40,539 bases of DNA from Verrucomicrobiota bacterium (GTDB lineage: Bacteria; Verrucomicrobiota; Verrucomicrobiia; Chthoniobacterales; UBA10450): NCBI GenBank assembly GCA_003218755.1, contig QHOK01000032.1, positions 1 through 40,539 on the forward strand, in the 5' to 3' direction. Of the stretch, positions 4,419 through 8,702 are shown piece after piece. Position numbers and translations under genes: made by a program. How positions within the stretch are numbered: the stretch's first letter is position 1; every line of letters starts with the position of its first letter. A model generated the notes under the pieces. That model did not search any database. It was not told the DNA's origin and saw only the letters and a list, made by a program, of their open reading frames with translations.

Positions 4419-5417
4419 ATGCCGCGCTCTGCTTCGCCCGAAGATCGACAAGCTGAAGTTCAGCAGATCATCACAATCCTGCACAAGTGGGGGATTCATA
4501 CCCTTGGTGAGCTGACAACGCTTGGTAAGGAGGAGCTTGGCGCGCGACTTGGTCTCGAAGCCATCCGGATGTGGGAGCGGGCGAACGGGCAATCCAATCG
4601 ATTACTCAAACTGATTCGGCCGCCGGAGTCGTTCGAAGAGAGGTTCGAATTTGAAAATGAAATTGAAACAGCCGAGCCGCTCCTTTTCATGCTGCGCCGT
4701 TTTTTGGAGCAGCTCGCGGTGCGGCTGCGCGCAATTTATCTCGTCGCAAAAGAATTGAGCCTACGAATCACGTTCGCGAACAAACAAGTTTACGAACGCG
4801 TTTTCAAAATTCCGCAGCCGACAAACGATGTCGATCTTCTGTTTCGGATGCTCCAGACGCACCTGGAGAATTTTAAATCGGAATATCCTATCGTTGCCGT
4901 CGCGCTAAGCGCGCACCCGAGCAGAGCTGCCAGAGAACAATTCGGATTATTTGAAACCACATTACGCAATCCGCAGCAATTATCAGAAACGCTCGCACAT
5001 TTGATCGCTCTTCTGGGCGCTGATCGAGTCGGCACACCGGTTTTGGAAGAGACGCATCGGCCGGATGCATTTCGTCTGGAGCCGTTTTTGTGGGCTGTAG
5101 CCCCGAAAGCATTCGGGGCTGTCCCTAGTGGACAATCTTCCGATGCGCTGACGACAGCGCACACTACAGCAGCTCTGCGGCGTTTTCGGCCAGCCGCCCC
5201 GATATCAGTCTTATTGGATGAAGACAGGCCTGCGCATGTTCACAGCCTAGATTACGGAAAAGTTATCGAGCACCGAGGTCCGTATTTGATCTCCGGAAAT
5301 TGGTGGGACGAAAAATCATGGGCACGCGCCGAATGGGATCTGCAGATGGAAGACGGCGATTTGGTTCGCGTTCATGAGGCTGAGGGAACGTGGGAAATTG
5401 ATGGTGTTTACGATTAG
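4419..5417 (+). CDS. imuB: ImuB-like mutasome protein lacking the N-terminal polymerase-like domain
   Basis: The 332-residue product matches the C-terminal two thirds of ImuB, the inactive Y-family polymerase relative that bridges DnaE2 and the sliding clamp in SOS mutagenesis. Visible parts are a helix-hairpin-helix thumb (GIHTLGELTTLGKEELGARLG, about residues 25-45), the little-finger region, a clamp-binding-like pentapeptide QFGLF (174-178), the LSETLAHLIALLGADRVGTPVLEE stretch shown in part as LLGADRVGTPVLEETHRP, and the ImuB ending ISGNWWDEKSWARAEWDLQ with GVYD at the C-terminus. The usual palm domain of roughly 150-200 residues is absent: an in-frame stop at 4407 blocks extension and nothing palm-like was found upstream. 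A palindromic repeat is read through at 5094-5170. It is either a decayed gene or a minimal bridging form; dnaE2 follows 72 bp later. Confidence 0.78.
   Translation: MPRSASPEDRQAEVQQIITILHKWGIHTLGELTTLGKEELGARLGLEAIRMWERANGQSNRLLKLIRPPESFEERFEFENEIETAEPLLFMLRRFLEQLAVRLRAIYLVAKELSLRITFANKQVYERVFKIPQPTNDVDLLFRMLQTHLENFKSEYPIVAVALSAHPSRAAREQFGLFETTLRNPQQLSETLAHLIALLGADRVGTPVLEETHRPDAFRLEPFLWAVAPKAFGAVPSGQSSDALTTAHTTAALRRFRPAAPISVLLDEDRPAHVHSLDYGKVIEHRGPYLISGNWWDEKSWARAEWDLQMEDGDLVRVHEAEGTWEIDGVYD
5094..5170. repeat. Palindromic multi-hairpin repeat inside imuB
   Basis: The outer ends are GCTGTAG and CTACAGC, a 7-bp inverted repeat. Inside are three further stems: AGCCCCGAA-AGCA-TTCGGGGCT (5099-5120), GTCC-CTAGT-GGAC (5121-5133) and GCGCTG-ACGA-CAGCGC (5145-5160). 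The segment is translated as low-conservation sequence between two conserved ImuB blocks, so it looks like an insertion tolerated in frame. Confidence 0.65.
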
Positions 5418-5489: not shown

Positions 5490-8400
5490 ATGCCTTACAT
5501 CGAATTACATGCCTCCAGCGCGTTCAGCTTTTTGCGAGGCGGCTCTTTCCCAGAGCAATTAGCTGAGGTGGCAGCGGAACTGGAAATGCCGGCGATGGCG
5601 TTGCTCGATCGCAACGGCGTTTACGGCGCGCAACGATTTTCCGTCGCTGCGCGCGAGCAAAATGTGCGGCCAATCATCGGCTGCGAATTATCCATGAACG
5701 ACGGCAGTGTCCTGCCTGTGCTGGTCGAAAATCGCACCGGCTACAAAAATTTGTGCGAGTTGCTGACCCAAGCGCATCTGCGCAGTGAAAAAGGCACGTG
5801 CGTCATGCGATGGCACGAGCTGCCATCATTCGCGCAGGGGCTGGTCGCCCTTCTGGGTAGCGCACGCGTCTCGCGTGCTGGTTTCGGCGTTGCGCCGAAA
5901 CAATCTTTCGAAGAATTCGCCACTTATCATAGATTTCGAACGATCAGAAAAGTTCGCGATGGCGAGGACGCCCTCGCCAGCACGCGAGACGCGTGCGCTA
6001 CCCAGTCGTGCACGAACCGCGTCAAACTGCTGATCGATGCTTTCGGGCGCGACAATGTTTTCGTTGAAGTTCAGCGACATTTCATTCGCGGCGAAGAACG
6101 CATCAATCGCGAGCTGATTGATCTTGCGCGTGCAAATCGATTGCCGCTTCTCGCTACGAATGGCGTGCAGTATGCAAAGCCTTATGGACGCGAGGTGATG
6201 GATGTTTTCACCTGCATTCGCGAGCACACGCACCTCGATGCTGCGGGAAAATTGCTAACGCAAAATGACGAACGGCATCTGAAGAGTGATCGCGAAATGC
6301 GAGCAATTTTCGCGGATTTGCCGGAAGCGATCGAAAACACATCGCGCCTGGCCGAGCGGCTCACGTTTTCGCTCGAGAATCTCGGATACGAGTTTCCCGA
6401 ATATCCAGTGCCGGCCGGTCACACGATGGATTGGTTTTTGCGCACGATCGTCTGGTTCGGCGCGCAACAGCGTTACGACGCGATCAGCGCCAAGGTGAAG
6501 CGACAGCTCGAAGAAGAACTCGCGCTTATCACGAAGCTCGGATTTGCCGGTTATTTTTTAATCGTCTGGGACATCGTCAATTTCTGTCGCGAACACAACA
6601 TCATGGTCCAGGGCCGGGGCAGCGCCGCGAACAGTGCGGTTTGTTATTGCTTGGGAATCACGCCAGTCGATCCCGTGGAAAATCATCTCGTATTCGAGCG
6701 TTTTTTAAACGAGAGCCGCAAAGGCTGGCCCGATATCGATCTTGATCTTCCCAGCGGCGATCGCCGCGAAGCCGTGATCCAGGAAATTTATCGCCGCTAC
6801 GGCAAGCACGGCGCGGCCATGACTGCGAATGTGATCAGTTACCGCGGACGCAGCGCCGCCCGCGAGATTGGCAAAGCGTTGAACTTTTCTCCCAGCATCA
6901 TCGATCGGTTTTCACATCTATTTGCCAGCGGCGATTTCCCGCACACGCTCGAGCTCGAATCGCAGATCGAACAAGCTGGTTTGCCAAAGGCGCACCCGCG
7001 GATGCCCGCATTCATCAGGCTGTATCACGCGATTTATGGATTGCCGCGGCACCTTGGGCAGCACTCTGGCGGAATGATTATCTGCCAGAATAAACTCAGC
7101 TCGTTCGTGCCGCTGGAGAACGCGTCTATGCCGAGCCGCGTCGTAGCGCAATGGGACAAGGACGATTGTGAAGACCTCGGCATCGTGAAAGTCGATCTAC
7201 TCGGCCTGGGGATGATGTCAGTGATGCAGGATACGTTCGAGCTTTGCCGCGAACGCGGGCGGCCTCTCGATCTTGCTCACATTCCCAAGAATGATCCGGC
7301 GACATTCGAGATTATGCAGCACGCCGACACGATCGGTGTCTTTCAAATCGAGAGCCGCGCCCAAATGGCCACCTTGCCGCGGATGAAACCGGAATGTTTT
7401 TACGACGTGGTGATTGAAGTGGCGATCATTCGCCCGGGACCGATCCAAGGCGACATGGTGCATCCTTATCTGGCGCGTCGCGCGGGAAAGGAGCCGCTGA
7501 CTTATTTCGACGAGCGATTGAAACCAGTGCTCCAACGCACGCTGGGGGTTCCGCTTTTTCAGGAACAAATGCTGAAGATCGCGATGGTCATGGCGGATTT
7601 TTCCGGCGAGGAAGCGGAAGAGTTGCGGCGCGCGCTTAGTTTCCATCGCTCAGAAGAACGGATGAACAAAGTCTGTGCGAAATTGCGCGCGACGATGGAA
7701 CGCAAGGGCGTGCCGCCGGACAAAATCGACAAAATTATTCAGTCCATCTCATCATTTGCCCTTTACGGATTCCCGGAATCACACGCGATCAGTTTTGCCA
7801 TTCTCGCTTACGGCAGCGCTTATTTAAAAGTGCATCGCGCGCCGGAATTTTATGCCAGCCTGTTGAACAATCAGCCGATGGGTTTCTACACGCCGGCGAC
7901 GATTGTCAAAGACGCGCAGCGGCATGGGCTAAAGATCAAGCCAGTTTGCATATCGCAATCCGAGCGGCGCTGCATAGTGCTCGATGATAATACGGTGCGC
8001 CTCGGGTTTTGCGTCGTGAATGGATTGCGGCAGGAACACGCCGAAGAACTCGTGAGGCAACGACAAGAGCGACCATTCGCGTCACTGGACGATTTCAAGC
8101 GGCGCGTCCCGCTCTCAAAAGATGAATTGCGCAGATTGGCGGAATTGGGTGCGCTCAATTGTTTCGCCAAACATCGCCGCGCAGCGATGTGGGACGTGGA
8201 AGAGACGATACACGACGATTTGCTAACATCCTCCAGAGGCGTAGCGGTGTTTGGCACAAGCGCCTCTACAACGGAACCGCTGGCGCGAATGACGTTGCCG
8301 GAACGCGTGAAAGCGGATTACGAGACGATGAATCTGACGACAGGGCCGCATCCGATGAAACTGTTGCGCGAAACTTTCCCGAATATTTGTCGTGCGATCG

Positions 8401-8702
8401 ATCTCGTTCACGCGCGACACGGTTCGATTATTCAGATCGCCGGCAACGTGATTTGCCGTCAGCGTCCTGGCACGGCGAAAGGATTTGTGTTTATCAGCCT
8501 CGAAGATGAAACCGGCGTCTCGAATGCAATCGTTGAGCCAGACTTGTTCGAACGCTTTCGGCTCGTGATCACAGAAGAAGCCTTCCTGCTCGTCGAAGGC
8601 GAAGTACAGAAGTCGGACAACGTAGTTTTGATTAAGGCGCAGGAGATCAGAGCGCTGGCGCACGAACAACTCATCGGAAGCGAGTCGCATGATTTTCATT
8701 AA
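5490..8702 (+). CDS. dnaE2: Error-prone DNA polymerase III alpha subunit DnaE2
   Basis: This is a C-family polymerase of 1070 residues, the damage-tolerant DnaE2 partner of ImuB. The N-terminal PHP domain begins IELHASSAFSFLRGGS, a DnaE2-type signature. The palm carries PDIDLDLPSGDR with catalytic aspartates near residues 415-419, then LPRHLGQHSGGMII, and the C-terminal OB fold includes GFVFISLEDETG. It copies damaged templates in the cytoplasm during the SOS response. ATG 5490 is preferred over TTG 5478 because MPYIELHASS matches the family start. Two palindromic repeats are translated within it: about residues 122-172 in the PHP domain, about 50 residues longer than expected there, and about 916-926. 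Both keep the frame, and all core polymerase motifs remain. Confidence 0.93.
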   Translation: MPYIELHASSAFSFLRGGSFPEQLAEVAAELEMPAMALLDRNGVYGAQRFSVAAREQNVRPIIGCELSMNDGSVLPVLVENRTGYKNLCELLTQAHLRSEKGTCVMRWHELPSFAQGLVALLGSARVSRAGFGVAPKQSFEEFATYHRFRTIRKVRDGEDALASTRDACATQSCTNRVKLLIDAFGRDNVFVEVQRHFIRGEERINRELIDLARANRLPLLATNGVQYAKPYGREVMDVFTCIREHTHLDAAGKLLTQNDERHLKSDREMRAIFADLPEAIENTSRLAERLTFSLENLGYEFPEYPVPAGHTMDWFLRTIVWFGAQQRYDAISAKVKRQLEEELALITKLGFAGYFLIVWDIVNFCREHNIMVQGRGSAANSAVCYCLGITPVDPVENHLVFERFLNESRKGWPDIDLDLPSGDRREAVIQEIYRRYGKHGAAMTANVISYRGRSAAREIGKALNFSPSIIDRFSHLFASGDFPHTLELESQIEQAGLPKAHPRMPAFIRLYHAIYGLPRHLGQHSGGMIICQNKLSSFVPLENASMPSRVVAQWDKDDCEDLGIVKVDLLGLGMMSVMQDTFELCRERGRPLDLAHIPKNDPATFEIMQHADTIGVFQIESRAQMATLPRMKPECFYDVVIEVAIIRPGPIQGDMVHPYLARRAGKEPLTYFDERLKPVLQRTLGVPLFQEQMLKIAMVMADFSGEEAEELRRALSFHRSEERMNKVCAKLRATMERKGVPPDKIDKIIQSISSFALYGFPESHAISFAILAYGSAYLKVHRAPEFYASLLNNQPMGFYTPATIVKDAQRHGLKIKPVCISQSERRCIVLDDNTVRLGFCVVNGLRQEHAEELVRQRQERPFASLDDFKRRVPLSKDELRRLAELGALNCFAKHRRAAMWDVEETIHDDLLTSSRGVAVFGTSASTTEPLARMTLPERVKADYETMNLTTGPHPMKLLRETFPNICRAIDLVHARHGSIIQIAGNVICRQRPGTAKGFVFISLEDETGVSNAIVEPDLFERFRLVITEEAFLLVEGEVQKSDNVVLIKAQEIRALAHEQLIGSESHDFH
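5853..6005. repeat. 153-bp palindromic element inserted in frame in dnaE2
   Basis: Two perfect 29-bp inverted arms (5853-5881 and 5977-6005, starting CTGGGTAGCGCACGCG) enclose 95 bp. Internal stems are TTTCGGCG-TTG-CGCCGAAA (5882-5900) and GGCGAGG-ACG-CCCTCGCC (5961-5978). Length is exactly 51 codons. Its left arm is read as LGSARVSRAG and its right arm as STRDACATQ; because the arms are inverted copies in matching register, the opposite strand reads the same terminal peptides and is also stop-free. Confidence 0.9.
8235..8267. repeat. 33-bp hairpin repeat inside the 3' part of dnaE2
   Basis: AGAGGCG and CGCCTCT flank a 19-nt loop containing TAGCGGTGTTTGGCACAAG. It is translated as RGVAVFGTSAS in a weakly conserved linker of DnaE2. 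It resembles the other short palindromes in the window in having a GTAGCG-like core. Confidence 0.55.

Follow-up and report, generated by a model that had tools for sequence, protein, structure and literature searches.

How can a long palindrome with perfect arms lie inside a DNA polymerase gene and leave that gene readable? This question is raised by positions 5853..6005 (153 bp, 51 codons) on the forward strand of the window, by which we mean the whole 40,539-nucleotide stretch that was analysed. It comes from a soil Verrucomicrobiota metagenome-assembled genome (MAG) of 293 contigs (G000), whose relatives include Chthoniobacterales and Candidatus Udaeobacter. The palindrome is the only inverted repeat in the 40.5-kb window with exact arms of at least 18 nt less than 400 bp apart. 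It is, with high probability, an in-frame REPIN that has settled in a loop of the PHP domain of DnaE2 where insertions are tolerated, and that adds a spacer of 51 residues to the protein. A RAYT (REP-associated Y1/HUH transposase) belonging to its own REP family most likely moved it.

The palindrome and its copies in the genome

The host gene, dnaE2 (5490..8702, forward strand), encodes an error-prone polymerase III alpha with Pfam matches to PHP, DNA_pol3_alpha, DNA_pol3_finger, HHH_6 and OB, and an ImuB-like gene with an IMS_C domain (4419..5417, forward strand; PF11799, E = 3.8e-8) sits directly upstream. The element makes up DnaE2 residues 120-170, numbered from 5496, and is placed between residues that align to positions 135 and 164 of E. 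coli PolIII alpha. It falls inside the PHP match, and the NTPase, finger, HHH and OB matches are full; the Pfam matches agree with the first-pass annotation of this DNA, which had located the palindrome in the PHP domain and noted intact polymerase motifs. The insert alone gave no match to Pfam.

The two arms, at 5853..5881 on the forward and 5977..6005 on the reverse strand, are 29 bp long and perfectly reverse-complementary, with 95 bp between them, and when mismatches are allowed they reach 38 nt at 89% identity. The left arm contains the short REP hairpin GCACGCG-TCT-CGCGTGC (5862-5878), with a GTAG tag (5857-5860) at its foot, and the right arm, recovered in the inverted-repeat scan, is an inverted REP that ends in CTACCCAG. 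With a GTAG-tagged REP hairpin in either arm, the element can be recognized as a head-to-head REP dimer, or REPIN, in which the GTAG tags face outward and the spacer lies within the 20-100 bp of REP dimers. The DNA fold shows a further, inner hairpin in each half of the element: that of the left half (5881..5901, forward strand; GTTTCGGCG-TTG-CGCCGAAAC) is conserved in the copies, and that of the right half lies at 5962..5977 (forward strand) in the fold centroid. Between these two hairpins is a 48-nt centre (5905..5952) that is unconserved between copies and by which the dnaE2-resident lineage was traced. The forward strand of the element reads LGSARVSRAGFGVAPKQSFEEFATYHRFRTIRKVRDGEDALASTRDACATQ and the reverse strand, in matching register, reads LGSARVSRAGEGVLAIANFSDRSKSMISGEFFERLFRRNAETSTRDACATQ, both without a stop codon. 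The perfect arms, the 51-codon length and the absence of stops on both strands had been noticed before from the letters, and they hold up when the two arms are compared and both strands translated.

Further copies had also been predicted, and BLAST and arm-pattern searches found many, both in the same genome and in relatives. The genome itself contains 81 BLAST matches, about 21 full-length copies and 51 matches to a 24-mer of the arm with at most three mismatches (none for the reversed control pattern). About 50 bp at either end are conserved among the copies and the centre is variable. Most of the copies are intergenic or fall in doubtful open reading frames, and those that are clearly intragenic are in dnaE2, uvrA and recG. 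On average 2.9 of the six frames of a copy are open, compared to 1.3 after shuffling. A length divisible by three and openness in both directions were rejected as properties of the entire family, since only 9 of 18 measurable copies have such a length and only 6 of 18 are open on both strands, indicating that these are traits of the copies filtered by residence in genes. A search of plasmids did not find the element. Neither a transposition event nor a circular intermediate was seen, and no target duplication, the feature looked for as a sign of a MITE of a DD(E/D) transposon, was detected at the flanks of the 21 copies or against empty sites, including the DnaE2 site, where such duplications had been suggested as a check.

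In uvrA, in-frame REPINs occupy the position of a native loop, LEKRKRAGNGDLFKLVSGAQE, which is ~21 residues long (L057 on contig C50; L179-L187). A second, insert-free uvrA (C72) and an insert-free recG (C178) are also present in the genome, by strain mixture, contamination or true paralogy, and therefore the contigs that carry the occupied recG and uvrA (C12 and C50) may stem from a relative.

Occupants of the DnaE2 loop in related genomes

We searched 98 genomes, mostly MAGs; the DnaE2 site could be read through in most members of the same family and also in ten outgroup genomes from other families of the order. The outgroup proteins have a native loop, e.g. TGDEEGPLRRALARDD, without the element, so the empty sites expected from the first-pass annotation do exist. 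In most same-family relatives, this loop is occupied by at least six REPIN families, labeled here by peptide signatures that were picked by the analyst: GSARVSRAG..STRDACATQ, GSTGCQPV..AACAPQ, GSARLQRAG..LQACAPQ, GSAGASPA..GARAPQ, GRVGILPAG..GRDAHPT and GSARASRA..RGACAPQ. Further inserts could not be assigned to a family, and short scars remain in some genomes (such as GSACATQ in G004 and GAGAPQ in G020). All inserts have a length divisible by three and are in frame in intact genes, and the REPIN takes the place of the native loop. Placed on the DnaE2 tree, the occupants fall into 11 states and require 27 changes, with a minimum of 10 and with 35 when shuffled, a count that is rough because many inner branches are weakly supported. 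As judged from these sequences, the loop is a standing landing site in which several REPIN families have replaced one another. One of the inserts at this loop, 'NASFANCRASVSDANSSRRF', recurs in five genomes (G016, G029, G009, G001 and G005; L097, L099, L101, L124 and L127), and no RAYT with this signature was recognized.

A REPIN is non-autonomous, and would most likely be moved by a RAYT as a single-stranded hairpin. In DnaE2 it takes the place of the native loop and would be translated as a spacer; the frame entered through the GTAG end (GGT AGC, Gly-Ser) is open on both strands. It probably survives in dnaE2 because this frame is combined with a length divisible by three, so that insertion or a later inversion, in either direction, keeps the polymerase readable. 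Within genes, an insertion would be expected to survive only if it hit a permissive loop, kept the frame open and had a length divisible by three; deletion between the arms would then leave scars, after which new families could reinsert. The REPIN would be mobile and expressed, and the DnaE2 protein that carries it is presumably active.

That the element can survive in coding sequence in either direction, as the first-pass annotation had proposed, is seen in the family-A element. It lies in one direction in the DnaE2 of G000, G003, G011, G013 and G034, and reversed, in the same loop and still in frame, in G007, G008 and G028; on the DnaE2 tree, its orientation needs at least three changes, likewise a rough count. 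The 48-nt centres of these eight copies differ by 0.26 on average, compared to 0.56 among other copies, and the synonymous sites of the flanks differ by 0.56. Since the centres are far closer to each other than to those of other copies, the eight seem to form one lineage, in which the arms would permit inversion in place.

The reversed copies could instead have arrived separately, by repeated insertion of a single subfamily into a favoured site. This is a variant of the landing-site explanation, and both may hold; it is a possibility to be taken seriously, though we consider it the less probable course. Other families entered the same loop repeatedly, and an intergenic copy (L046) has 71% of its centre in common with the dnaE2 element, both of which fit repeated arrival. 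However, centres in opposite orientation are as close (0.27) as those in the same orientation (0.25), compared to 0.52 to other copies, and inversion could proceed directly through the 29-bp arms.

It is improbable that the palindrome is instead maintained in dnaE2 for an RNA or DNA structure, acting in attenuation or mRNA stability, rather than being a tolerated mobile element. The hairpin is indeed very stable, with a single-stranded DNA fold of -63.4 kcal/mol compared to -27.8 ± 2.7 for shuffles (z = -13), and REPs elsewhere are thought to act in RNA (PMC3733652). However, the native loop of the outgroups is free of the element, the scars represent losses and the families substitute for each other freely. 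Rfam gave just a sub-threshold match, to the microRNA MIR7127 at window positions 5852-6006 (46.5 bits, cut-off 100); this identity was dropped for its score, and the match is almost surely a hairpin artefact.

A functional, DnaE2-specific peptide under amino-acid selection is very unlikely. The insert is present in most DnaE2 proteins of the family and in frame every time, as such a peptide would be, but its nonsynonymous and synonymous differences are about equal (pN/pS 0.12/0.13, 0.16/0.17 and 0.14/0.09), and pN is far below pS in the adjacent DnaE2 codons. Moreover, unrelated families and both orientations hold the site, some relatives lack the insert, and the same sequence is dispersed between genes. 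From these comparisons, the insert peptide seems to be without amino-acid selection. Even less plausible is a mini-intein or intron that is removed after translation or transcription: a conserved gene, an intact frame and fidelity to one site would suit a spliced element, but 51 residues are too short for an intein, Rfam gave no significant intron match and copies also occur between genes. An assembly artefact or contamination is hardly credible, for although the MAG is fragmented and also contains insert-free recG and uvrA, the window's own contig runs through the insert, and the same arrangement recurs in dozens of independent assemblies.

RAYT transposases inside housekeeping genes

Contig C12 carries a recG with an in-frame RAYT of the REP family of the dnaE2 element, flanked by REPs of that family. 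This RAYT with its REP ends (L045, positions 976-3765 of C12, reverse strand) lies between helicase motif Ia and GTHAL, as do those at L149-L163 and L236-L257. In other relatives, the recG site is either empty (46-58 residues, compared to 247-329) or holds a shorter insert (74-78).

Searching the 98 relatives with a RAYT profile turned up 62 strong matches (E ≤ 1e-40), 54 of which are in frames of more than 400 codons and 8 in short frames, as counted among the listed open frames. In a phylum-wide sample, RAYTs were found in 6 of 241 genomes, all in frames of 730-1164 codons. According to Pfam and NCBIfam, the hosts are recG, thrS, metH, at two inter-domain sites (L208, L211, L305 and L307 versus L209, L210, L215, L217, L306 and L310), and alaS (L212-L214, L216, L308, L309, L311, L312, L292-L295 and L297-L300, including distant Verrucomicrobiota). 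Six further hosts were confirmed with the same databases, and a second, more distant RAYT class accounts for most of the RAYTs there: carB in many relatives (L302, L303, L320, L330, L333 and L335-L339), valS (L304 and L329), leuS (L327 and L328), tsaC/Sua5 (L322-L325), clpB (L321) and a RarA-like ATPase gene (L332). For the first class, 57 of 62 distinct cores are in frames of at least 400 codons, and 56 of 62 lack an in-frame ATG in the stretch from the left REP to the core, GTG or TTG starts being possible. By their reading frames, the embedded RAYTs appear to be mostly without a start and stop of their own, in frame inside needed genes.

The embedded RAYT cores keep their catalytic residues. 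HxH and the catalytic tyrosine are invariant in an alignment of seven RAYT sequences, and HxH is kept in 59 of 62 cores. Pfam Y1_Tnp scores above its cut-off in most hosts tested, is below it in L212 and is not listed for recG; the NCBIfam profile REP_Tyr_transpos gives 55-78 bits, under its cut-off of 80. AlphaFold models the RAYT core alone with a pLDDT of 88.3, and the best PDB match of the core is 4er8, the complex of the E. coli RAYT with a REP hairpin (TM 0.70, 19% identity), although that TnpA-REP is a free-standing gene. The model of the whole RecG-RAYT protein is of low confidence (mean pLDDT 59.9), with linkers encoded by the REPs that look disordered and an ordered RAYT core. For the cores in recG and metH, dN/dS is ~0.05-0.12, like that of the host domains, with synonymous sites near saturation. 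The RAYT tree groups by host gene, requiring 12 changes compared to 31.8 with shuffled labels.

Often the RAYT-bearing host is the only copy of its gene that was found. In the six genomes where the RAYT-bearing alaS is complete on one contig, no other alaS was found. Likewise, nine genomes whose carB bears a RAYT have just one carB, in which the oligomerisation-domain match ends at about position 50 of 80. The dnaE2 REPIN agrees in family with a RAYT of its own genome in 20 of 27 genomes, compared to a permuted mean of 10.3, and this was equalled in none of 20,000 permutations, which ignore relatedness, with family A dominating the set.

On balance, we favour the view that these RAYT cassettes are 'in-frame transposons', mostly startless and stopless and expressed solely within the host protein (RecG, MetH, AlaRS, ThrRS, ValRS, LeuRS, CarB, ClpB, TsaC or the RarA-like protein), with the REPINs as their non-autonomous relatives. 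A frameshift or stop in the RAYT would be purged along with the host, since the cell needs the host gene and often has just one copy of it; this would keep the RAYT alive much like an intein but without splicing. The dnaE2 REPIN would have the same habit of settling in a landing loop.

Relation to known systems

In its basic kind the element is known, since Di Nocera et al. (2013, PMC3733652) reported in-frame GTAG REP dimers from repair genes such as dnaE2 and uvrA and counted the most intragenic GTAG repeats in a verrucomicrobium, Opitutus terrae. Those REPINs resemble the ones described here in tag, hairpin body, head-to-head arrangement and RAYT partners. In that study, REPs of one functional gene category occupy different sites, with Xanthomonas recB as the exception, whereas here one loop is common to at least six families and both orientations, and the RAYT itself lies in frame inside housekeeping genes. 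What appears to be new, from comparative genomics, is the multi-family loop with both orientations, the peptide without amino-acid selection, the family-matched RAYTs and the in-frame RAYTs. We found no embedded RAYTs in RecG, carB or other housekeeping genes in the open-licence literature. Such genes could be missed in surveys, because proteins longer than expected were dropped from one large Y1 transposase survey, being taken for gene fusions or mistakes of annotation (PMC6006769).

The comparison with Rickettsia palindromic elements made in the first-pass annotation stands in concept, as these are likewise palindromes translated within proteins, but not in the precise kind, which is a GTAG-tagged REP dimer with RAYTs. 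The intragenic RPE-4 and RPE-6 of Rickettsia conorii are tagged REPs of the CGTC type, which apparently lack a dedicated transposase, and are set apart by this description (PMC3733652). Inteins and IStrons (PMC4227781) are likewise mobile in genes without harm to the host; unlike these, the dnaE2 element has no splicing signal and would survive by being translated as a tolerated insertion.

REP/RAYT systems persist for very long, and an agreed explanation is lacking. If the reading proposed here is true, upkeep by translation inside needed genes would explain this persistence, and it is directly testable. It also provides natural insertion-tolerant sites in essential proteins and, in RecG-RAYT, a natural helicase-HUH fusion. 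In two of the relatives, nested inserts place several REP families side by side around the RAYT of recG (L163 in G030 and L170 in G031), and recG there looks as if it is collecting elements.
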